The notes below the pieces were generated by a model, which worked only from the letters and a program-made list of their open reading frames with translations, was not told the DNA's origin and did not search any database. Of a stretch of 64,000 nt of DNA, positions 2,705-64,000 are shown piece by piece. The stretch lies in NCBI GenBank assembly GCA_015143295.1, contig CM026553.1, positions 2,046,001 through 2,110,000 on the forward strand, written 5' to 3'. This DNA is from Tetracentron sinense (lineage: Eukaryota; Streptophyta; Magnoliopsida; Trochodendrales; Trochodendraceae). The stretch's first letter is position 1. Each line of letters opens with the position of its first letter. The position numbers were made by a program, and so were the translations under genes.

Positions 2705-2768
2705 GAGGGTTAAAATCCTCATTCCTTCACAAAATTCTACAGAGACAGTATGCTGCCCAGATTTTTTT

Positions 2769-4760: not shown

Positions 4761-4772
4761 TGGTATCAAAGT
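4761..4772 (+). promoter_or_regulatory. A primer binding site
   Basis: TGGTATCAAAGT, two bases after the LTR end, resembles the plant initiator-tRNA-Met primer site TGGTATCAGAGC, where minus-strand DNA synthesis starts. Confidence 0.8.
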
Positions 4773-4936
4773 CAATAGGAATAACCATCACACAAATCAT
4801 ACTTGTGCATAATACACCTAAGAACTGTTGGATAGGCGATCCCTTAGAGATTTATTCGATATTCCTAGTTGAGTTATTGTTGTACATGTCATGTTTCGAA
4901 ATCAGACATTGATTTGGAATATGTGCATGTGCAAGA

Positions 4937-5173
4937 ATGACAAGGACGCACCGAATTCCCAGAAAGAGGGAGATAGCTCTGTTTGAGTGGGCGGTGACTA
5001 TGCAAAGAAGACGTCACGCCGGATGGTCGTGTTACCGCACTATACACCTAAAGGCGGTAAAACGACTCCACAAGGGATTGACCGCACAAGCAATGCACGA
5101 ATCCCTAAGAAAGAGCGAGATTGATTGGTTGTTGAGAGAGGCTAGACCTGAGACAGAGGACCAGGCACCATAG
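4937..5173 (+). CDS. Conserved small reading frame upstream of gag in A (78 codons)
   Basis: An open frame of 78 codons lies 178 nt after the LTR and 326 nt before gag. It is basic and shares with the 69-codon frame of C at 25033 the pattern KR-(x)5-W-(x)3-M ... GW-(x)2-YRTIHLKAV-(x)2-L. In the nine-codon core YRTIHLKAV the two elements differ at four bases, all third positions and all synonymous. Spacing to LTR and gag is nearly the same in both. The ATG was chosen because it aligns with that of C. No known family is recognised; no signal peptide or membrane segment is visible. Possible roles include a small RNA-binding accessory protein or a translation-controlling upstream frame; both are guesses. 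Confidence 0.6.
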   Translation: MTRTHRIPRKREIALFEWAVTMQRRRHAGWSCYRTIHLKAVKRLHKGLTAQAMHESLRKSEIDWLLREARPETEDQAP

Positions 5174-5499
5174 GAGGGTAGTGTAGCAGTCTCACCGATA
5201 GAGGTTGAGACTTACGAAGTATAGGATCATGGTGGAAGAGCGTGGTGCATCTATATCGTTTTGGCATTTTGGAATATAATAGATGCCCTACTTGATCTTT
5301 CCATCATTAGATCACTTTTTGTATGTGTACAGCTACATGATGTTTTGTATACGCTGGTGTACTATATACTGTACAGTGTTGCTTTGTATATATTAAAGAT
5401 GAAGTGAATGAAATGTCTCTTTTTGGATATTGAATTCTCAGTGCATTTCAGTTTCATTTTATTATTAAAAGTTCGTTACTTTATAATTATAGGTGAATC

Positions 5500-6524
5500 A
5501 TGCCACCTCGACGAGCACCCGAGAATACCTTGGCTGGGGCATTCGAGGCTATTACAGCCCTAGCCAACCTAATTCAGCAACAACAGGCCCAGAATATGAA
5601 TGGAAATGGGAATGGTAGTCGTATCCCCATTGCTACCATACCAGAGCATAGGAATGTGACCTGATTGGAGAAGTTTAAGAGGCTTGGACCATCGGCCTTT
5701 TCGGGCACTATTGATCCGCTGAAGGCGGAGAACTGGATCAGAAGTTTGGAAAAAGTTTTTAGGGCTATGTCCTTGCCAGAAAATGACAAGCCCGAGTTCA
5801 CTATCTTTCTACTTGAAGGAGAAGCGGAACATTGGTGGACCACAGTGGAAAGGACAATTCCACCGCATCAGAGGCCCGTGACTTGGGCAAAATTTACTGA
5901 ATTGGTTTATGAGCGCTATTTTTCGGCGTCGATGAAAAAGAGGAAGGAGATGGAGTTTCTTCAGCTGACCCAAGGAAATATGTCGGTTAGCGAGTATAAA
6001 CAAAAGTTTAATCAACTCTCGAGGTTCGCTGCGAGATTTGTCGAGGATGAGCAGTGGAGGATTGAGAAATTTGAAGAAGGATTGAAGCCAGCTATCAGAG
6101 GGAAATTGGCAGCTCAACGATTTACCTCATTCTCAGAGATATTAGATAGAGCACTCAGAGTAGAGTGAGTGCATGAAGAACTGGCACAATCTAGTGCTGG
6201 CAAAGGCAAAGGAACAGTTGGAAAGCCCTGGATAAAGGAGAATAATCGGCAGTTTACTGGGAAAATAAAGTTCGAGGACATGAAAAGCCAAGGGTCTACA
6301 TGAAGATTGGGGCTTAAGTGCGAGAAATGTGGCTAGGGCCATTTGACCAAGGACTATAGAGCGAAGGTTTGCTTCCAGTGCGGAAAGCCTAGACACTTCG
6401 AGAAGGATTGCCCTAAGGCTCAACCACTAGCGTTGGAAGGCGGAAAAGGAAGAGTGTTTTCAATTACCCAGGAAGAGGCACAGCAGACCGAAGGTGTCAT
6501 CGAAGGTAAACTTTTAGTATTTTA
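5500..6524 (+). pseudogene. gag: A gag (capsid and nucleocapsid)
   Basis: It starts MPPRRAPENTLAGAFEA and carries the plant retrotransposon Gag domain (AEHWWTT, QLTQGNMSVSEY, FEEGLKPAIRGKLAAQRF) followed by zinc knuckles, the second being CFQCGKPRHFEKDC (C-x2-C-x4-H-x4-C). Gag would form the cytoplasmic particle and bind the element RNA. The start aligns with gag of C at 25565. A broken fossil. Confidence 0.85.
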
Positions 6525-6540
6525 AGTACTCGCTTATGCT

Positions 6541-9500: not shown

Positions 9501-9867
9501 AAAAGGTATTGTACGATTCGGAAAGCGGGGAAAGTTAAGTCCGCGATTCATTGGACCTTTTGAGATTTTGGCTAAAATAGGAGGTGTAGCCTACCGTTTG
9601 GCGTTACCACCAGAGCTGGCAAGGGTTCACAATGTATTCCATATATCCCTGTTGAGAAAATATGTACCTGATCCCTCGCATGTGATACGATATGAACCAA
9701 TTCAAGTCAGAGAGGACTTAACTTTTGAAGAAAAGCCAGTGATAATTTTGTACCGTAAGGAACAGGTGTTACGAAACAAAACGATTAAGCTAGTTAAAAT
9801 TTTATGGGAACACCATAGCATAGAGGAAGCCAATAGGAGCAATCATCCTCAGTTATTTGATGATTAG
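6541..9867 (+). pseudogene. pol: A pol (PR-RT-RNaseH-INT-chromodomain-like)
   Basis: Domains in order: aspartic protease (IDTGATHSFVS), reverse transcriptase ([33 protein letters not shown]), RNase H (VYCDASSKG), integrase with zinc-binding HHCC part and DDE core ([28 protein letters not shown]), then a C-terminal tail of the Tekay/Del chromodomain type ([19 protein letters not shown]). This is the Ty3/gypsy order. There is no sign of the gag-protease intron seen in B and D. A broken fossil with several breaks. Confidence 0.92.
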
Positions 9868-9898
9868 TGTATATGTAAATTTCGAGGATGAAATTTTT

Positions 9899-9914
9899 TG
9901 TAAGGAGGGGAGAT
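9899..9914 (+). promoter_or_regulatory. A polypurine tract
   Basis: GTAAGGAGGGGAGA directly upstream of the 3' LTR; primer site for plus-strand DNA synthesis. Confidence 0.8.
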
Positions 9915-12696
9915 TATAACGACCCAGAATTTTAATATAATAAAATTATGTGTTTATGGGTCCTTAATGGAGGTTAATTAGTTAATTATTTGTTAAATGA
10001 ATAAAAAGTGGATTTCACTCGGGATTGAAGTGCACCGAGGAAATCTCAGTATCTTTTGGCGAAAATCGTACACAGTGTGTTGGTCGACTGCCGGGACACA
10101 CCCCTACCGTATCGGTTCCGTCAGGTACCATTTCGCGGGACCGCGGGACCATTATGTGTGATAAAATTGAGAAAAATGGGAAATTTCTATATTTCCAGAA
10201 ATTAAGTGGGACCCAATATCTGTTAGAGAGCCTAATAGAAATCCATACGGTTGACACTAATGCGTGTCGGTCGGCCGTGGGGACTAATGTCTGTCGTCTC
10301 GGCAGTTAGTTATCTCAAACGAAGAAGCGATAGCGTGTTTTGTGTCCGAAATCAGAAAATTAGTGGGTTTTGTAATTTTCTTCCGGAATAAAGTGTAGCT
10401 GTCAAAACTTAGTATTTTTTCCCGAAATTTTTGCAGTAGGTGTCGGACTGCCCCAAGTTTGGTCACCTAAAATTTCGTCAAAATCGGACTCTATGTAGTA
10501 GGATTTCGGATGTCGTAAATACAAAAAAGTTCAAAAATTGGTCAATCAGTCAACCGGTCAAACGAGTTGACCAGTTAACTCTCCATACCTTATTGGTCAT
10601 GTGCTTTTGCACATGATCCCATCTCATTACTTAGATAAAGAGGGTTAAAATCCTCATTCCCTCACAAAATTCTATAGAGACAGCATGCTGCCCAGATTTT
10701 TTTAGAGAGAGAAAGTGAGGAGAGAGAAAGGAAGAGAGAGAAAGAGGAGAGAGAAAGAAGAGAGAAGCGGGTCCTTCACATATTTTGACGTCCCCGACGC
10801 GTTGGTGGCGTGTGATTTTCTCTCCGGCGTCTCGTTTTGCGTGTAGAGAGAGAGAAAAAGGTAGAGAGAGAAAGTGGAGAGAGAAAGTTGCATGCGGTCT
10901 ACCTTGGGGTTGATCATCCTTTCGAGCGCGTTGGCGACATCCATTTTTGCCTACGAGACCTCAAAACACGTGAAGCAAGTAAGACCCCTCTCTTTTCATC
11001 TCTTTTTCTACTTATTTTGCTATATTATTTCATGTGAAGTATATGCATGTCTTTTGAAGTGAATGAAAAAGGGTCGGAGACCCCTATGTGATGTTGTGAT
11101 TTTATGTAGTCCATCGAGGAGCCTAGATCGGATCCCGGGTAAATTGTATCGTCACTCTAGGGTGACGAAAAGTTGTTTTGCATGTCTTGTAAGGCTATGG
11201 AGACATCCATTAGCTTAAAAACGTTCCCTAACGGGACGGTGTGTTACCGGAGTTAGTTCACGGGCGCGAGGCCCAAGTATTTTAGTTAATCAAGTGAGGC
11301 TTGGGTTAACTGGGGTTAACCTATGGTTAGAAAATCTAACCAGGGTTAAGTATAGTCCGTGGTTCCTCTTTGACTAGGTCAGGAGAGACGGTGTCCAGTA
11401 AGGCCCGGGGTTCCTCCGTGACTGATAGTCGGGAGATGTCGGTCTGTTTGTCTAGGTCGTCCGTGGTGCCTCTTGGACTAGGTCAGGACTGGCGGTGTCC
11501 TGCATGGCCCGTAGTTCCTCTGTAATTGATAGTCAGAAGATGTCGGAATCCTAGGGAGTTTAAAGTGGCTGAACATTAGATAGTGTATAGTCTGGGGTTC
11601 CTCTCTGGGTGGGTCAAAAGATGTCGGCACCGTGTCTATCGGGGTCCCTTCTTGGTGGAACGCCAGGAGATGTCGGCATTGGTATAGATGTCGGGGTTCC
11701 TTCGTAGACTAGCCAGAAGATGACGGTAGGCAGGTTGGTCGGGGTTCCTTCTTGACTGATACCCAGGGCGATGACGGCGAATACACGGTAGATGTTGCCA
11801 GTCAGTTGAATGGAAAAGTATTGTCCTTATTGGGTGAATGCCCATGTTGTGTGTGTAAGCTTCGGATACGAAGTGGTCTGAGTTGGTATACTCAGGGTTG
11901 GTGTATTTGTCTGAGTTGGTGGACTCATGGTTCGGTATGGAATCATCGGATTCCAAGTGAGTTGGGTTGGTATACCCAAGGTTTGGTCATGTTCGGGTGA
12001 AAGCCGAAACAGCGTGTGTGAGTCTAAATGACTCAATGTATTATGGTTATGATTCAGAGACTTTAAGCTAAACATTTGTGGGCTGTGGCTAATTAATAGA
12101 GTCTCAGGACTCGAAATGAAACATGATTGATGATCGAAACGATAATTTGGTAATATAATACATTCATAACTGAACCTCATAATTGGAAAGTAATGTGAGG
12201 TCGGGAACCTCTGTTAGGGTGACGTAACCCTAAGTGACCTTGGGTCACAATTTATTATATACTCTTCTATTTTACTGTAACATGCAAATTGAACTGCTTA
12301 TTATATCATTATTGATGTGTGTTATTATATGGAAAATAGTTTAGAAGGATTGTGGTTTTATTGGGCTTCATAGCTCACTGACTTTTTATGTCAGCAGATC
12401 TCGGAGCTGTTGACCAGTAAGTGAAAAGTCCAACTGGACATTTTGGAAGCTTGTACGAGTTGTACCCAGCGTGATAGAAGCGCCTACTTTTGTAAAACAA
12501 ACTTGATGTAAATAATACAGGTATATGGTTTGTATGATGACTATTGTGATGATAGGTATTATTTGCTTTTTGGAAGCATCTGATAAATGTTTAAATTTCC
12601 TGCATTTTCACGGGTAAAGTCTTCTGCTTGCATGATTTAACGAACGAACGCGTGTCTCGGAACTTGATTCCCTAGGCGCGAGTTCCGGGCGTCGCA
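9915..12696 (+). repeat. A 3' LTR
   Basis: Matches 1980-4758 throughout, including the GA tract, degenerate repeats and CTGAC...CAG block near 12378-12399. Ends GGCGTCGCA next to TSD TAATG. Confidence 0.93.
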
Positions 12697-13316
12697 TAAT
12701 GACTCTAAGTAACTCCATGAACTCACAAGAACTCACATGGCTATGCTTATCGCATGACTCACACAGATATGGTTTTGGTTTTGGATTTCGGATTTCATGA
12801 CATATGCTATATATGCTTTCTACGCTTTGATATGCTTTAAGGATTTCATTCTCTATGATTCGTATGCTCTATGCTTAAGGCTCCATTCGATCTATGTGAC
12901 ATGGAGCCATGGTTGGAGGAAGAGTACTTCGACGCAGAGCCTTCCATGGATCATTATTAGGATGATGGTCCTATCGATAGGTGTCGAGACTTCGACTTTT
13001 ATTGATCGGCAGACTTAGAACTTTAAGATGTTATTTGTTATGTGAGTGTGGAGTTTTTCCACTCCACTTTTGGGTTTCTCACATGTATATACTTTTGTTG
13101 GTTCAGACTTGAACCGAGTTATAGGAGTTATTATTTTGCTTCCGCTATGTTTGGTATCTTATTTCCGTTGTGCATTGTATTTCGTTTCCGCTATGTTGTT
13201 CAGGTTTTCTGGCAGGTCTCCACGTGTGCCTTATGTATTATACTGGAGGTATGATATGGTGGTCACGAGTCAATGTATCCCTAACTCCTAGGGGGTATTT
13301 TGGGTCGTGAAAGACT

Positions 13317-14922: not shown

Positions 14923-15057
14923 GTACGTGCAAGTTTGATCTTGACTAAGTTCTAATGTTGCCATGATGTGTGGTATATATGTATCCTATGTGATGTTTTG
15001 CTATGCTTGGATCTATGTGAATAGTTTATGTTATAACTTGGGTAGTTAAATTCTCAG
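14923..15057 (+). other. Candidate intron between gag and protease in B
   Basis: 135 nt bounded by CAAG/GTACGTG and TTCTCAG/GTT, with a T-rich, stop-containing interior. Protein similarity to gypsy Pol ends at the donor and resumes in phase at the acceptor. D has a 134-nt counterpart at the same point with different interior sequence. Introns within gag-pol are known in plant Ogre (Ty3/gypsy, Tat) elements; use here is inferred. Confidence 0.7.
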
Positions 15058-18487: not shown

Positions 18488-18719
18488 TGTAGAGCCCTAA
18501 AATTTCATTTCACTAAGTAGTGAATGGTGTGAATAGTGTTCTAGTGTGAACTTGTGCACTAGCAAGCTTTAATTGAATATACGAGGTTGAAAGTATGGAG
18601 CACATGTTCTAGCGGGTCTATATATCACTAAGAAGTATGTTTTAGGCATAAAAGAGTTAGAATTGGATTGGAGGAGATTCAAGTAATGTAAACAAGGTTT
18701 TACAGCAAAACAGGGGATC

Positions 18720-18904
18720 ACCGATCGCTCGGTGATACCTCCAATCGACCTGTCTTCTACCGATCGCTCGGTAGCTATCGAGCAGTCAACTTTTTTGTAT
18801 GGGGAAACTTTCCAGATAGGGTGTTTTCAACTGATCGCTCAGCTGAAACCACCGATCGACTGGTAAGCCACCGATCGCTCGGTCTATACCACCGATCGAT
18901 CGGT
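18720..18904 (+). promoter_or_regulatory. Palindrome array in U3 of B 3' LTR
   Basis: Second copy of the eight ACCGATCGNTCGGT-like sites of the B LTR, with somewhat more mutated sites, upstream of the TATA box at 18961-18968. Confidence 0.75.
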
Positions 18905-19872
18905 CATACGCAGATTTTCTTCATTAAGGGTGTTTACGACTTTAACCACCACCCCTTGCCTATAAATAGGCTGAGTTCGTGCCTTAGGGTTTCAGAAACC
19001 CTCTGTGCCCTATCTTAGGAGATTCTGAGAGAGAGAAGGAGGAGAGGAACTACTTGTGATCAAGCTTGAAGGAAGATCAAGCTCTTTTTGGTGATTCTCA
19101 ACCAAGAACTCAAGGTTCTTGCTTGTTCAAGCTTTTGGGAATCAAAGTCTTTGATTTCACCAAGGTAGATACACTCTACTACCAATCTTGCAATCCTACT
19201 AGTTGCTATATATGATTCTCCTCACTTTATGCTATATATATATACGTATATCTTGGATGTTATGGTGTGAAAGTATGAAAGATAATATTATGATGCACTC
19301 TAAGGGTTTGATGAAATAACTTTAAGGGATTTTTATGCGTAAATATGACGATTTCTCTCATATGCTCGCATGTCTCGCATGAATCGATGTTTTCCATGGA
19401 TTTCTCAAAGTACGAAAAGTGTTTTTCATTAAATGACTAATAAGGAATGATTCTAAGTAACTCTATGATTTCTCTCAGATCGTCTCACAAGCTCTACGGA
19501 TCATACTGTGCTCACAAGGAACTCTATGATAAGCTCTAAGATCGTCTCACAAGCTCTACGGATCATAAATGTAACGCTCTAAGATCTCTAAGGATATGCT
19601 CTATGTGCTCTATGGTATCTCCATGTCTCTACGGATCATAATGACTCTAAGTAACTCCATGAACTCACAAGGCTATGATTATCGCATGACTCACACGGAT
19701 ATGGTTTTGGTTTTGAATTTCGGATTTCATCACATATGCTATATATGATTTCTACGCTTTGATATGCTTTAAGGATTTCATTCTCCATGATTTGTATGCT
19801 CTATGCTTAATGCTTTATTGTTATTAGTTTGTATACGCTGAGTATTCCACGCTCAGCCAATATTTGTTATCA

Positions 19873-20013
19873 TCAGCAGGTGCTCGGGCTCCATTCGATC
19901 TATGTGGCACGGAGCCATGGTTGGAGGAAGAGTACTTCGACCTAGAGCCTTCCATGGATCATTATCAGGACGATGGTCCTATAGATAGGTGTCAAGACTT
20001 CGACTTTTGTTGA
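19873..20013 (+). CDS. EPW-type acidic reading frame in B 3' LTR
   Basis: An open frame of 141 nt ending TGA encodes an acidic peptide with the core TEPWLEEEYFD and the ending DFDFC. It aligns without length change with the 141-nt frames in D and S (core PEPWVEEEY, ending LDYC). The conserved Pro and Glu codons differ at third positions between the families. The start is unclear: D and S open with ATG at the matching place, B does not. No known protein family is recognised. It lies in R/U5, so it would be in both the leader and the 3' untranslated part of the element RNA. Confidence 0.45.
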   Translation, partial: SAGARAPFDLCGTEPWLEEEYFDLEPSMDHYQDDGPIDRCQDFDFC

Positions 20014-20320
20014 TCAGCAGACTTAGAACTTTAAGATGTTATTTGTTATGTGAGTGTGGGGTTTGTCCACTCCACTTTTGGGTTTCTCATATGTATATAC
20101 TTTTGTTGGTTCAGACTTGAACCGAGTTATAGGAGTTATTGTTTTGCTTCCGCTATGTTTGGTATTTTATTTCCGCTGTGCATTGTATTTCATTTCCGCT
20201 ATGTTGTTCAGGTTTTCTGGCAGGTCTCCATGTGTGCCTTATGTATTATACTGGAGGTATGATACGGCAGTCACGAGTCAATGTATCCCTAACTCCTAGG
20301 GGGTATTTTGGGTCGCGACA

Positions 20321-21915
20321 CATAGGGTGTAACTGGAATAGACTTAGATGGAACCCGGTTCAGAATATAAATGGAAGTTTGTAAAGCATATCCCAAAAGA
20401 TATGAAGGAACATCGGCATGGCTCATCATAGAGCGAACCATATCTAATAAGGTATAGTTTCTTCTTTTAGGAACTCCATTTTGTTGAGGAGAGGCAGGAC
20501 TTGTCCATTGCGAGATAATCCCATTATCCCTTAAGTAATCCATAAACTCGTTGGTGAGGTATTCGCCACCTCGATCTGATCGAAGTGTCTTTATGGATTT
20601 GTCAGTTTGATTCTCAACTTCTAATCTGAATTCTTTGAACTTTTCAAAGGTGTCAGATTTGTGTTGCATCAAATAGACATATCCATATCTAGAATAGTCA
20701 TAGGTAAATGTGACAAAATACCGGTATTGACCTCATGCAACAATGTTAAATGGGCCACATACATCATTATGTATTAGTCTTAGCTTTTCTTCAACTCTTC
20801 CTACCTTTTTAGAGTAAGGCTTCTTGGTCATCTTCCCTTCGAGAAAAGACTCGCAAGTAGGGAGTGGTTCTACCTTGAGGAATTTAAGGGGACCATCTAT
20901 TACTAACCTCTTGATCCTATCAAGATTAAAATGACCAAGTCTCTTATGCCAAAGATAAGTAGACTCGGTGCAATGTCTCTTCATTCCTGACATTCTAGAT
21001 GATGAGGCATTGTCACTTTGCAAACATTCATTATTTACCAAAGGAAATATTAAATAAAGACCATTAATGAGATTACTAGTAATCAAGACCATTCCATCTT
21101 TCTTAATTTCAACAATTGAATTAAAATTGATTGAGAATCCATAAAATAAGAGCTAGATACTAAAATCAAATTACGATGTGTTGAAGGCACAAAAAAGCAG
21201 TCTTCTAAAATTAATGTCTTTCCATTAGGTAAATAAAGAGTAAACAAGCCGATTGAGTTCACTACAACATTTGCACCGGAGCCAACTTTAAGCTTCTGCT
21301 CATGTTTGGTCGGCTTTCTGGTTTCCTTGAACCCCTGCAAACAATTGCAAACATGTACAGTGGATCCAGAGTCCACGCACCATGAGTTAGGAGGATCATC
21401 CAAAAAGTGAGACTCAACAGTAATCAATACTTCAAAGCATCTCATACCTTGAGTATTGCCTCCACCCTTCTTAAGAGTTACGAGGTAAGTCCTAGAGTTC
21501 CTCTTCCAATGGCCTATTTTATCACAGTGTAAGCACTTTCCATTACCTTTGTTTTCCTTGCCAGCTTTTCCTGAAGAACCTTTGGCAACTCTTGCCTTAC
21601 CCTTATTATCTTTAAACTTACCTTTACCCTTATTCTTCTTTCTAAACTTTTTAGATCGATTGGAGGTATCAGGTTTATCGACAGTTAAAATTTCACCATT
21701 TGTTGACTTTTTGATCAATGTGAGTTCATAAGCTCACTCAGTGACATTTCACTCTTGTTCATGTTATAATTTAACATGAACGAATTGAAGGATGAAGGGA
21801 GTGACTGCAGAACAGTGTCAACCAGAGTGATGGCATCCAGCTCTCCACCAAGAATTTCCAGTTAGTTCAATAGGCCCATCATCTTAATAATGTGCTCCCT
21901 GACTGGAGTTCCCTC
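20321..21915 (-). pseudogene. E fragment: protease, GAG-pre-integrase and integrase core; CCHC knuckle
   Basis: Minus strand, from 21718 downward: basic nucleocapsid with CLHCDKIGHWKRNS-type knuckle, protease motif WCVDSGSTVHVCN, GAG-pre-integrase HKRLGHFNLDRIKRLV, and integrase core (DRGGEYLTNEF, SPQQNGVPKRRNYTLLDM). This is the copia order, with integrase before reverse transcriptase. It joins 813 on one side (across B) and 32974 on the other (across C). A broken fossil. Confidence 0.88.
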
Positions 21916-24150: not shown

Positions 24151-24875
24151 CGGTGACCACATAATAATTATGTTGAAGTCGACTTAATTTAGGACAATTA
24201 GTCCTAGCGGATGAAGACCCGGAGTATGTAGTTAGTCTACAGATTTAAGGTTGTATCGGATCTATGGGTCTAGGGTTGTATTGAGTCTAAATGACTTAAG
24301 GTACGGTCATACATGGACTAAGGTCCGGTCTTGAATAACCATGGGTTGTCATATGAATGAAACTTGTGTGAATTGATAAGCTAGGATTTATACAGTTATC
24401 TTTCTTGATATTATTGTTACTTTATTATGCTCTTGCATATGCTACTTTGGGTAATATAACTTGAACTGCTAATTCCTGTATGTTACTGTTATCAATGATG
24501 CATAGAATATAGTTAGAAGGATTGAGAATTTTGCTGAGCCTCATAGCTCACTGACATCTCATGTCAACAGATCAAGACGCCGTAGTTCATTGAATCTGAA
24601 CTTAGAAGAACGTTTTGGGGGAAATCATAAAAGGCTATATTTGGTATATGATAGATGTTTTTTTTTGTGAAAGACTTAATGGTACTTAATATAGGTATTT
24701 GTTTTGATGTGATGGTTATTGTGATGACCAATCATAATTGCTTTTAAGCTCTGGATATAAGGTTTAAAATTTACCGCACTTTTGGTGGGCATAAGTCTTT
24801 CGCTTTGTGTTAATGACGATCGGGCACGCGTCTTAGAATATAATTCCCTAAGGCGCATGTTCGGGGTGTCACAGT

Positions 24876-43088: not shown

Positions 43089-43684
43089 TTGTTAGACATG
43101 ATGCCCAGAAAAGTCATTTAGATTGTTAGATTCTTATTAATTTGATTAATAAAGACTTCTTCTTAATCTATTGTGTATTCATTATGGGTAATTGACCATG
43201 ATCATGAGATGATCTATACGATATGAGATATCGATAAAGGTTCATAGGATATATTGTAGAAAAGTTATGTGATTGGATTATCACAGGTAGATATAACTTT
43301 CCGGTTCCTTATACCTTATATAGTCACAACTGTGGGTGAAGCTGGACACTTGACTTATATGGCTGCCAGAATGCTAAGATGTTCTCAATAGTTGAGAAGT
43401 TGTAACGCCCCGAAATACCCCCTAGGAGTTTAGGGATATTTTAGGTGTCACACTGCGTACCTATCAAACTATCCTGCAATGCACAAGATAAAATACAATA
43501 CTAACAACAATAATCAGAGCGCGGAAGCTATCATATATGCGGAAGCGTAAACAAATTTTCATTTCTTCGGATGATCCAAAATGGTATTCCAAGTTGACAT
43601 AAATACAAAACACATCTAAGTCTAAGGTGGACAGGCCCACCTATCAAAATATCAAAATACATAAGACCCTCTCATACTCTCCCC

Positions 43685-43825
43685 TCAACAGTAGTCGAGG
43701 TATGGCCACGCATCGAGGTCTCGGTCCGCCTGAGACTGTAATGGAATAGCCGGCTCTCTCTCCTCTATATACTCTTCCTCGACCCAAGGCTCCGGGTCAA
43801 GGGCTCCCTCAGTACCTGCCGACAT
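43685..43825 (-). CDS. EPW-type 46-codon acidic reading frame in D 3' LTR
   Basis: ATG-to-TGA frame of 46 codons opening MSAGT, core LDPEPWVEEEYIEERE, ending WPYLDYC; strongly acidic. The S frame has the same length, start and end, with about ten codons changed synonymously and about nine non-synonymously, and none changed in PEPWVEEEY. B and G share the core. No known family. It directly follows a stem-loop. The ATGTCGGCAGGT at its start also looks like a 3' splice site, so translation and splicing are competing readings. Too short for usual gene finders. Confidence 0.5.
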   Translation of the reverse strand: MSAGTEGALDPEPWVEEEYIEEREPAIPLQSQADRDLDAWPYLDYC

Positions 43826-43834
43826 GAAAGTACG

Positions 43835-43855
43835 GCTGAGCATGGAATACTCAGC
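43835..43855 (-). other. Stem-loop before the EPW frame in D
   Basis: GCTGAG and CTCAGC separated by a nine-base loop; the same stem occurs in S (52992-53012) and B (19837-19857), with a related GAGTAC/GTACTC stem in G. The sequence TGAG...CTCA also occurs in C. Confidence 0.55.
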
Positions 43856-44112
43856 GAGGACAAGCTACTAGCAGACCATAACAATAATAAAACACACAAT
43901 AGTAATATCATACCAGCAGTAATAGACACATCACAAAGAAACAGTATAGGTCATGACACAATACAAGCATCCTGACGTGCGTACATGAATGCGAAAACGC
44001 CGATAAACCTCATGCTTGAAAACCCCTGTCATGCCCGGTATGCCTCGTAGAAATCATGTATGCTTGCATGCATGAATGCATGATCATCATCTTGTAAACT
44101 TCCATCTTGTAA

Positions 44113-44592
44113 CTTGTGAGCCAGAGGCTAGCACCCGAATGTCCTTGGGCTACCAACCTCCTTGTTATGCAATGCACTTGTGAGCCAGAGGCTAGTACCC
44201 GAATGTCCCTGGGCTACCAACCTCCTTGTTATGCAATGCACTTGTGAGCCAGAGGCTAGCACCCGAATGTCCCTGGGCTACCAACCTCCTTGTTATACAA
44301 TGCACTTGTGAGCCAGAGGCTAGCACCCGAATGTCCCTGGGCTACCAACCTCCTTGTTATGCAATGCAGGGTTTTCTTGTGAGCCAGAGGTTAGTACCCG
44401 AATCCTCCCTGGGCTACCAACCTCCTTGACAATAGGTGATTTTTATTACTTGTTTAGTTTTCTTGTGAGCCAGAGGTTAGCACCCGAATGTCCCTGGGCT
44501 ACCAACCTCCTTGACAATAGGTGTTTTAGGGGTTATCTTGTGAGCCAGAGGTTAGTACCCGAATCCTCCCTGGGCTACCAACCTCCTTGACA
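44113..44592 (-). repeat. 64-bp minisatellite in D 3' LTR (seven units)
   Basis: Units containing CTTGTGAGCCAGAGG and GGGCTACCAACCTCCTTG start at 44113, 44177, 44241, 44305, 44378, 44462 and 44537: four at exactly 64 bp, then three with longer spacers. The copy in the other LTR (about 54102-54586) has the same seven units. Confidence 0.88.
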
Positions 44593-45578
44593 TGCAATAT
44601 TTTCTTGTTGTTTATTATATGCACATGTTCTTGAAATCTCGATTCATGCTATCATGCGTGCTCATGTACGTGTCCATAGTGACAATCATGATAATGGGAA
44701 TAACCAAAATATGACATTACAATTCAATTCATGATATGAACATAGGTAACATAAGTAGTTTGCATAACATTTGATCAATTTATCATTTATAAGAACGCAT
44801 ATATAAAACCCATTTCCATATTCTTCATTGAGATCATTTATTCATAGTTTAGGTATCTTGTCAAACACTTTCATACATTATTCCTTAGTAGTTTATCTCC
44901 TTCTTTTAAATGCATATTTTCCATTCAATCACACAATGGTAAGTTTGTTATTTGTACTATGCCCATCCTCCATTTTCCAATCCACAACCCACACATCATA
45001 CATCACATTCGGCATCCAATCGCCACATCCAATCTCCCATCCACACATTCATTCCATTTCCCTTATCTTGTTTATATTTGTTGAGTTAATACAATGCATA
45101 GGGAAGGGAAAGCATAATATATATAATCACCATTTACACTAGAAAACCTAGGTTATTGCTAGGGAAAGTTAGTAGGGTGTACTAACCTTAGATCAAGGCT
45201 TGATCTTGAAGAAACCTTGAAATAGAAGCTCTATTTGGAAGGAGGAAACCTTTGCTTGAAGGGGACTTGAGTTGGGGAAGAAACCCTTTTCAAAAACGTG
45301 AGTGAGTGCTGCCCTAGCTTGGAGAATGCACCCCACACGAGCTTGAGCCTTGAGCTTGAAGCAATCCAAGCTTGAGGACGACCTAGGATGGTCCACCCCT
45401 TTGATTCCTTCCTCAATGGAAATCCTAGGTTAGAAACCCCTTCTTCTCACTCTCTATCTCTCAATTTCTCTTAAGTGATGAGAATGAGGCCTTAAGGCTC
45501 GGGCAAAGCCTTATAGGAAAGGGTTTAACCCCCAAAAGATGAAAATGCCCTTAATGAAATTTCTGCAAAAACGCGAAG

Positions 45579-45763
45579 ACCGAGCGATCGGTGGTTATGA
45601 CCGATCGATCGGTTGCCTACTGAGCGATCGGTGTTTATGACCGATCGACCGGTCAAAAACTCACTCTCTGGAAAATCTCCCCATACAAATTTTCTGACCG
45701 TGCGATAGCTACCGATCGATCGGTTATGGACCGATCGATCGCTGACTGGACCGAGCGATCGGT
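45579..45763 (-). promoter_or_regulatory. Eight-site palindrome array in D 3' LTR
   Basis: Sites (plus coordinates) at 45579, 45600, 45619, 45640, 45697, 45711, 45730 and 45750. Spacing 21-19-21-57-14-19-20 is the exact mirror of B, as it should be on the opposite strand. Confidence 0.8.
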
Positions 45764-45998
45764 TCTCTGTATAGCTGGACTGTTTTGACTATATCTTTTG
45801 ACTCGCTCGTCGGATTTCGACGATTCAACTTGCATTGGGTTCGTCTTTCGAAAACGCACATTTCTGATGTTTCGGAATTTCCGATTTCTCCCTTATTTAT
45901 TAATTAGACTATAAAAACGGTCAATTAGCTACGAAGGTGCTATTCATTTAGCTACGAAGGTGCTATTCATTAAGGATGAAAAAGTCCGGGGTGCTACA

Positions 45999-46090: not shown

Positions 46091-49000
46091 CTATTCAAAC
46101 AACTCGGGATACTTTGCTTTGACTTCGGCTTCACGCTCCCACGTGGCTTCTTCTCGGGCATGATGTTGCCATTGCACGAGGACTAGCGGAATAGTCTTGT
46201 TGCGAAGCACTTGATCTCTCCTATCCAAAATATGAACCGGCTTCTCAACTAAAGTGAGGTCCTCTCGGATCTCTATCGGATCAAGCTCGATGATATGAGA
46301 AGGATCCGAGATGTACTTCCGGAGCATAGAGACATGGAATACATTATGGACCGCCGCCATGTGAGCGGGCAAAGCAACACGGTAAGCCACCTCGCCAACT
46401 CGAGTAATGATCTCGAACGGACCCACATATCTCGGGCTAAGCTTGCCTTTCTTCCCGAATCGCATAACACCTTTGGTCGGTGAAATCCTTACAAACACAA
46501 AATCACCGACTCGGAATTCAAGATCCCTCCTTCGGTTGTCGGCATAGTTTTTCTGTCTATCTTGTACGGTCTTTAACCTCTCCCGGATAAGCTTGACCCT
46601 ATCCGCGGTTTGTTCAATTAACTCAGGGCCCAAAATCTTTCTTTCTCCCACTTCATCCCAATACAACGGAGATCTACAACTCCTTCCGTACAAAGCCTCG
46701 AAAGGCGCCATTTGTATGCTTTCTTGGTAACTATTGTTGTAAGCGAATTCCACCAAAGGTAGGTGATCTTCCCAACTTCCCTTGAAGTCTAGCATACATG
46801 CTCGGAGCATATCTTCAAGAACTTGATTCACCCTCTCGGTTTGCCCGTCGGTCTGTGGGTGGAAAGCTGTGCTAAAGTCTAACCGGGAGCCCATTGCACC
46901 TTGAAAACTTTTCCAAAACCTGGATGTGAATCTTGGGTCTCTATCCGACACAATACTCACTGGCACCCCGTGTAATCGGACTATTTCCTTGATGTATAGC
47001 TCCGCTAACTGATTGGAGTTGAATGTAGTCTGGTACGGTAAGAAATGAGCGGACTTCGTGAGTCTATCAACAACTACCCATATAGCATCGGTCTTCCTAA
47101 CCGTCTTCGGCAACCCCACGATAAAGTCCATAGAGATATGTTCCCATTTCCACTCAGGAATGGGGAGAGACTGCAAAAGACCCGCCGGTCTCAAATGCTC
47201 TGCTTTCACCTGTTGGCATACCAAACACCGTGCCACATACTCCGCAACCTCCCTCTTCATGTTTCGCCACCAAAAGTGACTCTTGAGGTTCCGATACATC
47301 TTTGTCCCCCCGGGATGCACTGTATACTTAGACCGGTGAGCTTCGTCCATAATCTCTCTCCGAAGGTCTGCATTGGCTGGGACACAAAGCCTTCCCTTGA
47401 ATGTAATAGCACCTCGGCTAGTGAGAGAGAAGTCCGTACTACCCTTGGCCACTTCCCTATCCCGAAAAACCAACAAGTCAGTGTCCGTGGCTTGATACTC
47501 CTGGATCAAGTCTATAAGGTACGGCCGAACTGTAACATTTGCCAAAACCGGACTGCGGACAGAATCGTTCACACTTATGTCTAGATTTGCCAAATCGTCT
47601 AACAGTCTCCATTCCCGCACCAACATGTGAGCCAACAACCCCGATGGTTTCCTACTCAAAGCGTCTGCCACCACATTTGCTTTTCCCGGGTGATATTGGA
47701 TCGTGCACTCATAGTCTTTTAAGAACTCAATCCAACGCCGTTGTCGCAAATTGAGCTCTTTTTGGGAAAAGAGGTACTTGAGGCTCTTGTGGTCCGTGTA
47801 CACATAGAACTCCACCCCGTACAGATAATGTCGCCAAATTTTGAGTGCAAACACGACCGCCGCAAGCTCCAAGTCGTGAGTGGGGTAGTTCTTTTCATGC
47901 TCTTTCAACTGCCTTGATGCATAGGCAATGACCTTCTTGTGTTGCATTAGGACACACCCGAGTCCAACATGCGAGGCATCACTGTACACCTCATACCCAA
48001 AAGGTCCAGATGGCACAGTAAGGACAGGGGCTGTGGTGAGGCGTTTCTTCAACTCTTGGAAACTTACTTCACATCGGTCACTCCAACTGAACTTTGCATT
48101 TTTCCTTGTCAAGTAGGTGAGAGGTGCAGCCAAACTGGAGAATCCCTACACAAATCTCCGGTAGTAGCCTGCCAATCCGAGGAAACTACGTATCTCTGTG
48201 ACGCTCTTGGGCCTCTCCCAACTCGTGACTGCCTCAACCTTGGCTGGATCTACAGAAATGCCCTCGGCCGACACCACGTGTCCAAGAAATGCGACCTTCT
48301 CTAACCAGAACTCGCACTTACTCAATTTGGCATATAGCCTATGCTCTCTCAACATCTCCAGAGCGAGGCGGAGGTCTCGTGCGTGATCTTCCCGTGTCTG
48401 GGAATACACCAAAATGTCATCAATGAATACAATCACGCATCGATCCAAGTAAGATCGGAACACCCGGTTCATCAAATCCATGAATGCCGCCGGTGCATTC
48501 GTCAGCCCAAAAGGCATGACAAGGAACTCGTAATGCCCATACCGAGTCCTAAAAGCCGTCTTCGGAACATCTTCCGCCTTGATCCTTAATTGATGATACC
48601 CCGATCTAAGATCAATTTTGGAGAAGAATCTCGCTCCCTTCAGTTGGTCGAACAAGTCATCGATCCTTGGCAAGGGATAACGATTCTTGATAGTTACCTT
48701 GTTCAACTGACGGTAGTCTATACACATTCTCATCGACCCGTCTTTCTTCTTTACAAAAAGGACCGGAGCTCCCCACGGTGACACACTTGGTCGGATGAAA
48801 CCAAGTTGTTGTAACTCCTCAATTTGCTTCTTCAATTCTTCAAGCTCTATCGGGGCCATTCTATATGGGGCTCTTGAAATCGGAGCGGTGCCCGGAGTAA
48901 GCTCTATAGCGAACTCAATCTCCGGATTTGGAGGTAACCCGGGAAGTTCCTCCGGAAACACGTCCAAGAAATCACTCACGACCGGAATGGCCGAGGAGTT

Positions 49001-49422: not shown

Positions 49423-49556
49423 CTGTGCGATTAAGTAACTAATATCAGTAGATTTCAAATAGTAACAAGCATCATACATAGGTAACCCTTAGTATAAATA
49501 ACCGCATAACAAACCATAGAAATTTTATACAACTTAAACTCAAAATTCTCGCGTAC
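49423..49556 (-). other. Candidate intron between gag and protease in D
   Basis: 134 nt on the minus strand, CAAG/GTACGCG to ATCGCACAG/GC, interior T-rich with stops. Same position relative to the protein as the 135-nt candidate in B. That it persists in a young, nearly whole element argues that it is functional. Confidence 0.72.
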
Positions 49557-50793
49557 CTTGCACGACATCGTCGGATGCACGTGCATCCCCCTCGGATAAG
49601 GCAAAGACTCGGCCCTGTGTGGCTGGGCGAGGAGGCCGGGTAGACTGTGAGGCCCTCGAAGCCTGAGAAGAGCTAGGCTGAGATATCTGCCTAATCGGGG
49701 GCTTGCTCCCTGAAGACTGAGTTGGCAATTGACGCCGGGGACAATCTCTGACCATGTGGCCTTGGTCACCACAATGGAAGCAACTTCCTGAAACTCTCCG
49801 GCATTCTCCCGCTGGATGCCTCCTCCCACAAAGAGTGCAAACATCATGCAAATAGGAGGACGGAGCATACCCCGTAGCCTGAGTAACTGCGGGGCGAGGA
49901 GCATATGAGGTAGCCGGGCGAAAAGCCGGTGGAGCGAAAGAGCTGGGAGCCTGTGGTGCTGAATACATCCTCTGTGACTGAGCCGGGCCTGCAGACTGAT
50001 ACAAGCTCGTCCTTGCTCTTTTCTCCCCTGAACTACTCGACTGTCCTTTTTCCATTCCTCTCCTTTTGAAGAACTCCTCGGAGTTCGACTCGGCCAATAG
50101 TGCTTTATCAACAACTTCAGAATATGTCTCATGTCTAAACATCGAGACTCGGTCCTTGAGATAGGCCTTCAACCCCCTCTTGAATTTCCGGGCCTTCATA
50201 GCCTCGGTCGCTATCATGTGTGGAGCAAATCGAGATAGCTCCGAAAATTTGGCTTCATAAGCCGCTACGGACATATTACCTTGCTCCAAGGTAATGAATT
50301 CGACTTCCATCTTTTCTTTCATCCCGACTGGGAAGTACTTCTTGTTGAAAACCTCCAAGAATTCCTCCCAAGTCCAATCTTGACCTTGCCGGGTCAACTC
50401 TCGGGTCCGAAGTGCAGACTTCCACCAATGATCGGCCTCGCCTTCAAGCATAAAGGCGGCCCATGTGACCCTTTCCACTTCAGTAGGTGCTAATACCGAG
50501 AATATCTTCTCAAGTTGCCGGATCCAACCCTCGGCAACAAGTGGATCAATGCTTCCACAAAAAGTTGGAGGCCTCATCCTCCGAAAAGCTTCTATCCCGG
50601 CTTGGGCTCGGTTAGGAGGAGCCGGTATGAGTGCCGCATTAGGCGGAGTGGCCGGTTGCCTTGCCGCCAACATAGCCAAAGTCTCGGCTATGGATGCGAA
50701 TGCTTGGGCAAAGTCGGGTTGATCATCACCCGATGGAGCATCACCTCCATTACCCCTCGTGTTGTACCCGCGACCCCGGGTATTGCGTCTCAT
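49557..50793 (-). CDS. gag: D gag
   Basis: Start taken at MRRNTRGRGYNTRG, aligned with B; a further in-frame ATG lies seven codons upstream. Gag core with AEGWIRQLEKIFSVLAPTE, EGEADHWWKSALR and EQGNMSVAAYEAKFSELSRF; Ser- and Pro-rich linker; two zinc knuckles, CTLCGRRHPAGEC (C-x2-C-x3-H-x4-C) and CFHCGDQGHMVRDC (C-x2-C-x4-H-x4-C). Looks whole. Encodes the particle protein. Confidence 0.9.
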
Positions 50794-51104
50794 GATTTCT
50801 CCTGAGAACGACAATACAACATGAGTCTAACTTGGATACGCATTTAATACAATTTCGCAATTCACTTAATACCTATTCATCAAGCACATTTAATAAGTAC
50901 AACACAAATAATGTACACATGGTATATAACACAATAGCATAACATACAATCCGTGTTCCTAGCGTAGGACTCTATGTTCGGTTGAAGTTCAACCCATTTT
51001 GACTAAGACTAACTTGTTAGTCTATACTTGGAATACAACTCTCTAAGGTGATTCTAATACCTTGTTCAATCATCTAAGTGACCCTAGGGACTCTAATACC
51101 TAGG
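50794..51104 (-). other. D untranslated leader with candidate intron
   Basis: No coding frame seen. An acceptor-like CTCAG (50802-50806) lies just before gag as in B, and a donor-like AAG/GTATTA at 51060 would give a 259-nt intron. A block near 50826-50847 is identical to the B leader. Confidence 0.35.
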
Positions 51105-51116: not shown

Positions 51117-51386
51117 CTCTGTAACGCCCCGAAATACCCCCTAGGAGTTTAGGGATATTTTAGGTGTCACACTGTGTAGCACCCCGGACTTTTTCATCTT
51201 TAATGAATGGCACTTTCATAGCTAATTGGCCGTTTTCGTAGTCTAATTAATAAACAAGGGAGAAATTGGAAATTCTAAAATGTCAGAAATGTGCGTTTTT
51301 GAAAGATGAACCCAACGCAAGTTGAATCGTCGAAATCCGACGAGCGAGTCAAAAGATATGGTCAAAACAGTCCAGACAGATAGAGC

Positions 51387-51571
51387 ACCGATCGCTCGGT
51401 CCAGTCAGCGATCGATCGGTCCATAACCGATCGATCGGTAGCTATCGCACGGTCAGAAATTTTGTATGGGGAAATTTTCCAGAGAGTGAGTTTTTGACCG
51501 ATCGATCGGTCATAAACACCGATCGCTCGGTAGGCAACCGATCGATCGGTCATAACCACCGATCGCTCGGT
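51387..51571 (+). promoter_or_regulatory. Eight-site palindrome array in S
   Basis: Sites at 51387, 51407, 51426, 51440, 51497, 51518, 51537 and 51558; spacing 20-19-14-57-21-19-21, identical to B. Confidence 0.82.
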
Positions 51572-52553
51572 CTTCGCGTTTTTGCAGAAATTTCAGTAAG
51601 GGCTTTATCGTCTTTTGGGGGTTAAACCCTTTCTCCTTAAGGCTTGCCCGAGCCTTAGGGCATCATTCACTATACTTAGAGAGATTTGGGAGATAAGAGA
51701 GAAGAGAAAAGGGTTTCCTAAACCTAGGTTGCTTTTGGAGAAGAAATCAAAGGGGTGAAGACCCTAGATCGTCCCCAATCACGTTTTCTTCAAGATTTCA
51801 ACTCGAGCTCGTGTGGAGGTGCATTCTCCAAGCTAGGGCAGCACTCACTCACGTTTTGAAAGAGGTTTCTTCCCCCAACTCAAGTCCCCTTCAAGCAAAG
51901 GCTTCCTCCTTCCAAATAGAGCTTCTATTTCAAGGTTTCTTCAAGATCAAACCTTGATCTAAGGTTAGTACACCCTACTAACTTTCCCTAGCAATAACCT
52001 AGGTTTTTTAGTGTAAATGGTGATTATATATATTATGCTTTTCCTTCCCTATGCATTGTATTAACTCAACAAATATAAACAAGATAGGGGAATGGAATAA
52101 ATGTGTGGATGGGATGTCGATTGAGGCGATTGGATGCCGTATGGATGTTGTGTGATGTGTGAAAAGGAAAATGGAAGATGGGCACTTTACAAATAACGAA
52201 TGTACCTTGATGTCTTGATGAAAAATACGCACTAAATAAGGGAAATGGAAGGACTAAGAAATGTGGCCCACCGGGTGTTTGATAAAATGACTAAACAAGG
52301 GATAAATGGACTTAATGAAGAAAATGGAAATAGAAATTGTGTAAATGTTCTTAGAAATGATAAATTGCTCAAATGTGCTATATGTTGCCTAAATTTTCAT
52401 ACCACTATGTTAAGGATTGAAATGCCATAGTCATGTGATCCGCCCATTCAAGTATGTCATCATGATTACCACTATTGACAAGCACACAAGCACGCATGCA
52501 TGCATGAAACCGGGTTTTTCCAAGATTGTATTTGTATATGAAATGAATCAAGA

Positions 52554-52746
52554 ACATGACAAGGAGGTTGGTAGCCCCAGGAAGGGTGCTAGCCTCTGGC
52601 TCACAAGTGAAATGCAAGAAAGAACATGACAAGGAGGTTGGTAGCCCAAGGAAGGGTGCTAGCCTCTGGCTCACAAGAGAAACGGAACAAGAACATGACA
52701 AGGAGGTTGGTAGCCCAAGGAAGGGTGCTAGCCTCTGGCTCACAAG
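52554..52746 (+). repeat. Minisatellite in S (three units)
   Basis: Three units of about 70 bp starting at 52554, 52624 and 52693, reverse-complement relatives of the D 64-bp unit (GACAAGGAGGTTGGTAGCC ... GCCTCTGGCTCACAAG). Three here against seven in D. Confidence 0.85.
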
Positions 52747-53021
52747 TATACAAGTCAAGAACAAATCAAGACATGAAATACAAGACAAGACACGATACAC
52801 ATACATGATTTGACCGAGACACGAAAAAGGTTTCCGAGACATGAGTTTTACCGAGGTTTTTGCATTCATATACGCATGTCAAGATATGGCTATGTATCTT
52901 ATGCTTTCACTATTGCTTTAAATTAATATCTTGTATTGCTCACTGTTGTTATGCGTTCGTTATTGTTATGGTTAGCTAGTAGTTTGTACTCGCTGAGTAT
53001 TCCATGCTCAGCCGTACTTTT

Positions 53022-53162
53022 ATGTCGGCAGGTACCGTGGATGTCCTCGACCCCGAGCCTTGGGTCGAGGAGGAGTATGTAGAGGAGAGGGAGCCACCTA
53101 TCCCATGGCAGTCTCAAGAGGATGGGGACTTGGATGTGTGGCCATACCTCGACTACTGTTGA
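53022..53162 (+). CDS. EPW-type 46-codon acidic reading frame in S
   Basis: ATG-to-TGA frame opening MSAGT, core LDPEPWVEEEYVEERE, ending WPYLDYC. Identical length to that of D, with no insertions or deletions although the surrounding LTR has many. Preceded by a GCTGAG/CTCAGC stem-loop at 52992-53012. Function unknown; see D copy. Confidence 0.5.
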   Translation: MSAGTVDVLDPEPWVEEEYVEEREPPIPWQSQEDGDLDVWPYLDYC

Positions 53163-53676
53163 GAGGAGAGTGTTAGAGAGTTCCTTTTTGTATTTTGATA
53201 GGTGGGCATGTCCACCTTTACTTTGATTGTATTTAGTATATGTTAACTTGGAATACGATATGGAGTAATAGAAGAAAAGAAAAAGTTGGCTTATGCTTCC
53301 GCATTTATGTTTAGTTTCCGCGCTCTGATTATCATTGTATTATATTATGTTTAGCCTCTTGTATTACAGGATGGTTTGACAGGTACACGTAGTCACCTCT
53401 AAAGTATCCCTTAACTCCTAGGGGGTATTTTGGGGCGTGACACACTGCGTACCTATCAAACTATCCTGCAATGCACAAGATAAAATACAATACTAACAAC
53501 GATAATCAGAGCGCGGAAGCTATCATATATGCGGAAGCGTAAACAAATTTTCATTTCTTCGGATGATCCAAAATGGTATTCCAAGTTGACATAAATACAA
53601 AACACATCTAAGTCTAAGGTGGACAGGCCCACCTATCAAAATATCAAAATACATAAGACCCTCTCATACTCTCCCC

Positions 53677-53817
53677 TCAACAGTAGTCGAGGTATGGCCA
53701 CGCATCGAGGTCTCGGTCCGCCTGAGACTGTAATGGAATAGCCGGCTCTCTCTCCTCTATATACTCTTCCTCGACCCAAGGCTCCGGGTCAAGGGCTCCC
53801 TCAGTACCTGCCGACAT
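53677..53817 (-). CDS. EPW-type reading frame in D 5' LTR
   Basis: Second copy of the 43685-43825 frame, identical by eye, as expected for the near-identical LTRs. Confidence 0.5.
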   Translation of the reverse strand: MSAGTEGALDPEPWVEEEYIEEREPAIPLQSQADRDLDAWPYLDYC

Positions 53818-62504: not shown

Positions 62505-64000
62505 TGTAACGACCCCAAAATCCTACAAGGCTAAAATAGGACTTTGGAATCGTCACATTACTTAAACCTACTTAAAATCCATGCATACAAGGCTTACTAC
62601 ACGAGTCTCCAAAATGAGAGTAGAAAAAAATTCCGATTTTATCAAACTCAAACTATCCTATACAACGGTCATCTGCCCAACATAATAAAATCCAACATAA
62701 ACAAAAATGTCTAATACTCAACTATAAAATAATCCAATAAGTAACATCAACTAAAAGTCTACTGCAAAACTCTTAAACCAAAGAAAACATAAGCTAATAG
62801 GGGTAATTATCAAAGCCCCTGGCTCCCTCCTCAGTCGGCCCACCTTCTCCTCCTTCCTCGGCGTAGTCTCTTCAATCCACGGCTCCGTTGTGTGCCCCTG
62901 CTCTAAACCTGCCAAGACAAAGTCTGACTGAGTACAAAAGTACTCGGTATATATAAAATCCAACCAATAATGTAGTAAACCTGTACTTAGTTAAAATCAT
63001 ATCCAATAGCGTAATAACATAGTCAGAGTGCGGAAGAACATGTGCTCATACACATCATATCATTACCTTGACTCGTGTACTTGTGAGAACTTTAGATTTA
63101 GTAGACAACATACTTATGAGATGCTTATGCTTATGAGACCACGTGCTTGTGAGATGCTTATGCTTATGCACTTATTCAGATCATACAGTGATGTGACATG
63201 CCGTTATTGGCGGATACAGACCATGCCTAAGAAATCATAAAATGGACATGCCGTTCTTGGCGGATACGGACCATGCCATGCTCATGCTTATTTAGAATGT
63301 CATACGTATGCCATGCTTATGCTTGTGGTCCACATGTGTGACTTGTGAGACTCTTATCTTAACATACATGTGCATTTGTGCTTCAGTGTCGAAATTAACA
63401 TTCGAGTTGGTAATCGCTTAGATTCCAATCTCCCACCATGGAAACTCCACTATACTGTCCCATACCAAATAGTTAGAGAATTCCCGGTTTGAGAGATTTT
63501 CCTCTAAGTTCTTACCTTCCCGACTATCAATTTCCATGCAAGTAATTAGACATACTTAACAAATAATCACATATACATATCTTATCATGATTCTTAGTAC
63601 AATTCATAATCAATTTCTTACAATTCCATAGTAATGTATTAGTATTTATCCTCTCAAGCATTTTCACAAACACCTTGGGTACATAGATCATGAACCCATT
63701 TCCCTTTCCACATTTCAAACATTTCGTCAAACCATAATTCATCCATACAATCTAATTACAATCCACATCCACATATTAATCCCATCCTCCATAGTATTTC
63801 CCATCCTCTATACATTACATCCACATCATTAATCCATATTTCCATCCATAATAACTTACTTCATACAAAAATAGGGAAAAACACCTCTAATTTCTATTTC
63901 TATCATTTCTATCATATTAACATTCACAAAACATTAAAATAAAGTTGATTGGGATAGTATATCGACCTTAGGGATCCTTCCCTTGGATCCAAATTGCTCC
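62505..64000 (-). mobile_element. Element G: gypsy LTR, minus strand, runs off the window
   Basis: Begins TGTAACGACCCC within the H frame; TAAGG at 62500-62504 is the expected target duplication. Orientation is set by the GAGTAC/GTACTC stem-loop (about 62929-62946), the TTGGCAGGT block and the EPW frame, which all read on the minus strand as in D. No internal region is reached. Confidence 0.65.
62751..62963 (-). CDS. EPW-type reading frame in G LTR
   Basis: A 70-codon frame containing LAGLEQGHTTEPWIEETTPR. The TEPWIEE core falls at the same point after the stem-loop and GGCAGGT as in B, D and S; downstream residues are not alignable. The Pro codon differs (CCG here, CCT in D and S, CCA in B). 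Confidence 0.4.
   Translation of the reverse strand: MDFIYTEYFCTQSDFVLAGLEQGHTTEPWIEETTPRKEEKVGRLRREPGALIITPISLCFLWFKSFAVDF

Follow-up and report, generated by a model that had tools for sequence, protein, structure and literature searches.

Long terminal repeats (LTRs) are normally treated as regulatory DNA, and a reading frame kept within them raises the question of whether it is translated and, if so, from which RNA. In the 64,000 nt of Tetracentron sinense DNA analysed here (the window), an earlier inspection of the letters alone (the sequence-only reading) had described a 46-codon acidic micro-frame within the LTRs of gypsy elements. The frame is real and coding-like, but it is probably not an independent micro-ORF. 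The reading preferred here, at a probability of about 0.6, is that a spliced Gag RNA would join a donor at the end of gag to an acceptor in the 3′ LTR, giving Gag an acidic tail, and that use of a local acceptor would give Gag-Pol.

LTR frames in the window and the genome

The frame of LTR S (53022–53162, plus strand) translates as MSAGTVDVLDPEPWVEEEYVEEREPPIPWQSQEDGDLDVWPYLDYC followed by a stop. Counted from a splice-site-like G|GT, the coding exon of S occupies 53032..53162, with 43 codons and then TGA. Element D carries the frame twice, at 43685–43825 and 53677–53817 as had been described, both on the minus strand; its two LTR copies are identical, with exons at 43685..43815 in the 3′ LTR (where it is predicted to end a spliced Gag RNA) and 53677..53807 in the 5′ LTR. 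In element B the frame claimed at 19873–20013 (plus strand) is open but lacks an ATG, and the exon of this 3′ LTR runs from 19880 to 20013, 44 codons from G|GT. A decayed copy in the 5′ LTR of B (~12879..13005, plus strand) is interrupted by an in-frame TAA and ends differently. That LTR (814–1979 and 12695–13310) is split by element A (1982–12696) and has lost the hairpin and acceptor that precede the frame elsewhere. LTR G (exon start 62868..62908, minus strand, after GGCAG|) has the EPWIEE core already described and a tail that differs from those of S, D and B; what it shares is the core only.

Two features of the original description hold in part. The frame was attributed to at least four gypsy families, and it is present in S, D and B, with its core in G; however, S and D are close relatives, so the window contains fewer independent families than claimed. 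They differ at 23 of 141 nt, with 4, 6 and 13 differences at codon positions 1, 2 and 3. The constant length of 141 nt in B, D and S is correct as framed but is partly a product of the start chosen: with AG|GT as the start, the count is 43 codons for D and S and 44 for B. In the other tabulated subfamilies the LTR tails are 36–58 codons long from the same point.

Elements of this kind are presumably Tekay/Del, a name that follows the sequence-only reading. The pol part of D (46091..48133, minus strand) encodes RNase H, integrase and a weak chromodomain and ends 92 nt before the 3′ LTR. Pfam matches are RT_RNaseH (48–141), Integrase_H2C2 (255–311) and, below the cut-off, rve (331–426), with RT-RNaseH preceding integrase as in Ty3/gypsy elements; the Chromo match (635–679; E 1.5e-4) scores 22.1 bits, below its cut-off of 25.1. 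A Pfam search with two of the LTR frames gave no match, and the S frame searched against the protein database gave no candidate.

Across the 1.16-Gb genome the encoded core GARCCNTGGNTNGARGA is matched 14,547 times, compared with 30 matches to the same pattern reversed, and the hairpin preceding the frame has 23,317 genome matches with up to 2 mismatches; the core figures are counted matches that were not each checked as LTR. The frame core is well above chance both in the genome and at hairpin sites, with PWxE in frame at 35 of 39 hairpin–acceptor sites. These 39 sites come from a pattern search of 29 records (288,200 bases). Since the pattern itself demands the hairpin and [CT]AGG, and 20 further sites used below are exact hairpin matches on one contig, decayed copies are under-sampled.

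Splice-site-like start and putative leader intron

In the families read, the conserved part starts at a 3′ splice-site-like GCAG|GT that follows a hairpin and a T-rich stretch. The order of hairpin, T-rich stretch and AG|GT is shared by the aligned S, D, B and G sequences and the 39 pattern sites; in S the three occupy 52992..53031 (plus strand). The hairpin is GCTGAG...CTCAGC, or CGAGTAC...GTACTC in G. The spacer between hairpin and AG varies by 1–3 nt and is therefore not a reading frame; downstream of AG|GT the frame is maintained, in phase 1 (G|GT encoding Gly). The LTR frame is very likely entered at this AG|GT by splicing.

One candidate partner lies in the same LTR. The longest ATG-free stretch is 551 nt in D, 551 nt in S and 413 nt in B; under first-order resampling a stretch of that length was reached in 0/300 trials for D and at frequencies of 0.003 for S and 0.01 for B, D and S being relatives. 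No such stretch is present in the LTRs of elements A and C. The stretch ends about 50 nt past a putative donor, which in D and S is the best by score (AAG|GTTAGTAC) and in B the third (AAG|GTAGATAC). The predicted intron would begin at 51964 in S (solo LTR 51175..53442, plus strand, with CACTG on both flanks), at 45186 in D (3′ LTR 43401..45998, minus strand, 2598 nt, TATA-like box at ~45515) and at 19165 in B (3′ LTR 18488..20324, plus strand, TATA-like box at ~18961). Among the 23 sites whose upstream sequence is long enough, including those in the window, 13 show the same arrangement. It suggests that the LTR holds a leader intron whose acceptor would be the CAG|GT.

Because the acceptor is also in the 5′ LTR, it could have a purely leader role, paired solely with the donor of its own LTR; the frame would then be a by-product or be translated from a non-AUG start. 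The recurrent donor arrangement fits such a role, as do some D- and S-family copies in which CAA replaces TAA at the junction and an open stretch of about 35 codons spans it. In the window, however, D and S show an in-frame TAA directly before the junction, B has a TGA four codons before it, and the link with an intron in gag, described below, would be left unexplained. A search of the genome for the D-type junction, as left by loss of the leader intron from an LTR, gave one match with 2 mismatches against 2 in the control. Exon 1 was tried as coding sequence and rejected: 0 of 24 joins of leader to exon 2 have an in-frame ATG that reaches the junction without a stop, and its frame is not conserved. 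Since leader exon 1 does not code in frame, translation must reach the selected frame by another route, and a role confined to the leader is unlikely.

A free micropeptide, translated alone from ATGTCGGCAG in the leader or in a subgenomic RNA, is likewise improbable. It would agree with the coding constraint on the frame and with the ATG TCG GCA GGT (or TCG ACA GGT) found in frame in D, S, F4, F5 and F6 copies. This ATG, however, is part of the acceptor motif ATGTC..CAG. The motif is also present in the LTRs of C and of locus L023 (and, by eye, of A), all without a long frame, and an in-frame ATG is absent at that place from B-type, F7 and G LTRs. In the comparison LTR of family C the acceptor CATGTCAACAG|ATC (24571..24593, plus strand) is followed by a stop after 7 codons. 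Additionally, an ATG-rich stretch lies upstream in the unspliced leader, and a spliced leader would lose the ATG. The claim that the peptide starts at its own ATG in the genomic leader is thus not favoured: the ATG is a component of the acceptor motif, several families do not have it in frame, and the 24 leader joins point the same way.

Upstream of the TATA-like box in both D and B lie palindromes with the core CGATCGATCG. In the D LTR the arrays lie at ~45,590–45,761 (minus strand), and arrays occupy the same place in B and at many loci. The window holds 13 exact cores against 0.06 expected at random. Arrays of 4–8 palindromes (one mismatch allowed in the core) are located upstream of 21 of 23 hairpin sites, some of which share an array, and the flanks differ by family (ACC...GGT, TAC...GTA or TGC...GCA).

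Coding selection on the LTR exon

The LTR exons fall into thirteen clusters at 20% distance. Estimates of dN/dS, proposed with the original description as its check, were made for twelve chosen pairs in five groups, dropping codons with gaps or stops; the pairs share copies and the exon is short. All pairs are within groups, because B-type and D-type exons are too far apart for safe codon alignment. In frame 0, dN/dS is 0.15 for D–S, 0.18 and 0.08 for B-type, 0.07 for F4, and 0.24 and 0.14 for F5. In a third B-type pair dS is saturated, with changes at 20 of 25.7 synonymous and 11 of 103 nonsynonymous sites. The shifted frames of D–S, B-type, F4 and F5 pairs give 0.61–5.01. Purifying selection is therefore evident in four of the five groups (0.07–0.24), much as in gag, where the same method gives 0.13–0.23 in 6 of 9 pairs with unsaturated dS. 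The exception is F6, which keeps PW[IM]E yet is nearly unconstrained, with early stops and dN/dS of 0.45–0.89 in five pairs.

Among 24 D-type copies, variants found in at least 2 copies comprise 14 synonymous, 9 nonsynonymous and 1 stop, and singletons 15 synonymous and 19 nonsynonymous. Together 29 of 58 variants are synonymous against a neutral expectation of 24% (binomial 1.6e-5, with sites taken as independent, though LTR pairs of a single element account for some of the shared variants). These tallies omit copies with less than 85% or 86% identity to the window copy, including the frame-shifted copies at L014_7232 and L015_8280, as well as the second window copy of D; locus L029 was left out of the scripted analyses. 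When eight S-type copies are considered separately, their singletons show no constraint (3 synonymous, 9 nonsynonymous, 2 stop), a pattern that is as expected of decay after insertion but lends no support. Of the 20 further sites, 19 yielded an exon and L070 yielded no site. Seventeen of these exons are D/S-like and free of frame shifts, 14 being intact and 3 interrupted by a stop; the other two are an F4 and an F6 exon. Regarding frame shifts, for which the sequence-only reading had also looked to young copies, the extra sample contains none among its 17 D/S-like copies, but the two D-type copies just named are shifted in the earlier sample.

The reported variation of conserved codons at third positions is borne out at the core Pro: a synonymous change of its third base has 4,074 genome matches (control 9), against 275 (control 19) for a change of the second base. 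Here too matches were counted and not each checked as LTR, and copies of one subfamily are not independent. All four third bases occur among the matches listed. That the LTR frame is a selected coding exon can be accepted with high confidence.

A constraint of this kind could be mimicked by an RNA or DNA element, such as an exonic splicing enhancer or a packaging or dimerisation signal, and the purine-rich GAGGA runs with the adjoining conserved hairpin would suit an enhancer. This is very improbable: the constraint is specific to one frame, the core Pro takes every third base among the matches listed while its second base is rarely changed, and the lengths of the subfamilies differ by whole codons.

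The gag end and a predicted second Gag isoform

The gag open frame of D (49543..50826, minus strand, 428 codons) contains Retrotrans_gag, Ty3_capsid and zf-CCHC and, unspliced, ends in ASDDVVQGTREF*. Between gag and protease the frame is broken by a T-rich stretch with stops, and the protease start resumes after CACAG|GC or CTCAG|GT. In D the putative intron (49423..49556, minus strand) is 134 nt long, with a phase-1 donor AAG|GTACGC, an acceptor CGCACAG|GC and a T content of 0.42 against 0.18 and 0.33 in its flanks. In B (14923..15057, plus strand) it is 135 nt long, with a phase-1 donor AAG|GTACGT and an acceptor TTCTCAG|GT. The donor AAG|GTACG[CT] is present in phase 1 in all six aligned elements, namely D, B and four D-like loci (five D-like elements in all). 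There the gag end reads ...ASDDV[VM]Q-G|GT, with the donor in the context VVQ-G|GTACG, and gag is open for 423 codons upstream of the donor in D and at locus L014.

This donor is the sole phase-1 coding donor common to the six aligned elements, and its phase matches that of the LTR acceptor; the other conserved coding GT sites are in a different phase or absent from B, the phases having been worked out by hand. The same gag–pro break is found at two F5 loci (L022 and L024). Elements A, C and L023 have contiguous gag–pro (G[RQ]VF[STA]IT...EG[VI]I.GKL...) and a similar LTR acceptor followed by 6–7 codons only (A read by eye). Intron and long LTR frame thus occur together in D, B, the four D-like loci and F5, and neither occurs in A, C and L023.

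The least probable of the alternatives is that the LTR exon codes but is joined to a pol donor, an earlier gag donor or an exon captured from the host. The evidence of selection leaves the partner unspecified, and in the five D-like elements gag contains another phase-1 donor (D internal 892, AAG|GTAATA), but this donor was not seen in B, and a search of the pol end found no conserved phase-1 donor. A donor that went unrecognised could be the true partner of the LTR acceptor.

Under the preferred reading, in which the gag-end donor is joined to the 3′ LTR, the full-length transcript would offer that donor two acceptors. The local acceptor, 134–135 nt away in D and B, would restore the Gag-Pol frame. 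The 3′-LTR acceptor would skip pol and yield a subgenomic Gag mRNA whose last exon supplies the acidic tail and its own stop; coding use is more likely here, as a terminal exon spliced to gag, than in the 5′ LTR. The 5′-LTR copy, renewed with the 3′ copy at each reverse transcription, would probably serve as an untranslated acceptor of the leader intron. From unspliced RNA, Gag would end at GTREF* or similar. The choice of splice would set the ratio of Gag to Gag-Pol and provide Gag with alternative ends. The predicted tails are 36–58 residues long in the tabulated subfamilies (43–44 in D, S and B), have a PW[VIL]EE core, and carry a net charge of −9 to −13 in the eight tails considered; EPWVEEEYIEER is an example peptide.

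Spliced copies and relatives were also searched. A search of the genome for a spliced fossil of the D/S-type junction between gag and LTR exon (up to 2 mismatches) found none among 28 matches, all of which run into gag-intron sequence. These 28 gag copies have the donor by construction, having been pulled by the junction pattern; the local acceptor AG is visible in 24 of them and missing or mutated at L033, L036, L044 and L054. The Gag tail is absent from the 12 Gag relatives read out of 54 protein-database matches. A complete F4 gag and any F6 gag were not recovered, the gag end being deleted in the one F4 copy seen. As a separate observation, one Gag from another source (P0003) has 59% identity over 58% of the query and ends in DDVVQGTSSQSFITAWY, as if the gag intron were retained.

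The wider model states that a large group of plant Ty3/gypsy elements makes a second Gag isoform by long-range alternative splicing that links the end of gag to the 3′ LTR of the same element, with the LTR encoding a fast-diversifying, selected acidic domain and one acceptor serving the leader intron in the 5′ LTR as well as the Gag tail in the 3′ LTR. It is judged slightly better than even. Confidence in the preferred reading is reduced slightly by the unconstrained S-type singletons and by the fact that five of the six aligned elements are D-like. If true, a selected coding exon in LTRs that have more than twenty thousand genome matches would be a part of the Gag repertoire that annotation has missed in an abundant group of plant elements, and splicing would offer an explanation of how Gag is produced in excess of Pol. 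The acidic tail could alter particle assembly or the RNA binding of basic Gag.

A review describes plant LTR elements as generally without introns, with Ogre and EVADE as exceptions (PMC12786077), to which an account of BARE adds CRR and Bagy2 (PMC3735527). In the Ty1/copia elements EVADE, BARE1 and Drosophila copia, splicing gives a short Gag-only RNA (shGAG) and an excess of Gag (PMC12786077, PMC3735527, PMC7730604). The present elements resemble these in having a conserved donor at the gag end (six of six aligned elements) and a proposed Gag-only splicing; the Drosophila copia splice removes most of pol, and Gag in EVADE and BARE1 ends soon after the junction, whereas here 36–58 codons would follow the predicted junction before the stop. 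Unlike shGAG, the system proposed here belongs to a Ty3/gypsy element, its predicted acceptor lies within the 3′ LTR, and the end that Gag would gain is acidic and conserved.

Among plant Ty3/gypsy elements, the polyprotein frame of Ogre is described as completed by splicing of a short intron between GAG-PROT and RT (PMC6317226); here, however, the break lies between gag and protease, and a second predicted acceptor lies in the LTR. In CRR a splice removes rt and makes two ORFs, and Bagy2 has a spliced env RNA (PMC3735527); the passage on them does not mention an LTR-encoded Gag tail. The CRM group A chromoviruses are described as encoding the integrase end, or CR motif, in the 3′ LTR (PMC3059260). 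The likeness is a chromovirus coding sequence in the 3′ LTR, but there the integrase frame runs on into the LTR, while here pol stops 92 nt before it in D (about the same in B) and splicing would connect the LTR part to gag. An extra protein of ~400 aa with an NLS, the 5′ aORF, is described for sunflower Tekay (PMC11728184); it too is an additional Tekay protein, but it is positioned upstream of gag-pol and differs in this from the LTR exon. No description of a gag–pro intron or of an LTR-encoded Gag tail in Tekay/Del elements was found in the open-access literature, as far as its text was available.

Two minor observations concern the arrangement and history of the elements. The solo LTR S (51170–53447 with its CACTG flanks) sits in the last bases of the 5′ LTR of D in the opposite orientation. 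In the F5 loci L022 and L024, about 90% of the compared pol residues are common with D, against only about 60% (L022) and 54% (L024, partial) in gag, and the LTR exon differs strongly; joint evolution of gag and LTR, or their exchange, may lie behind this.
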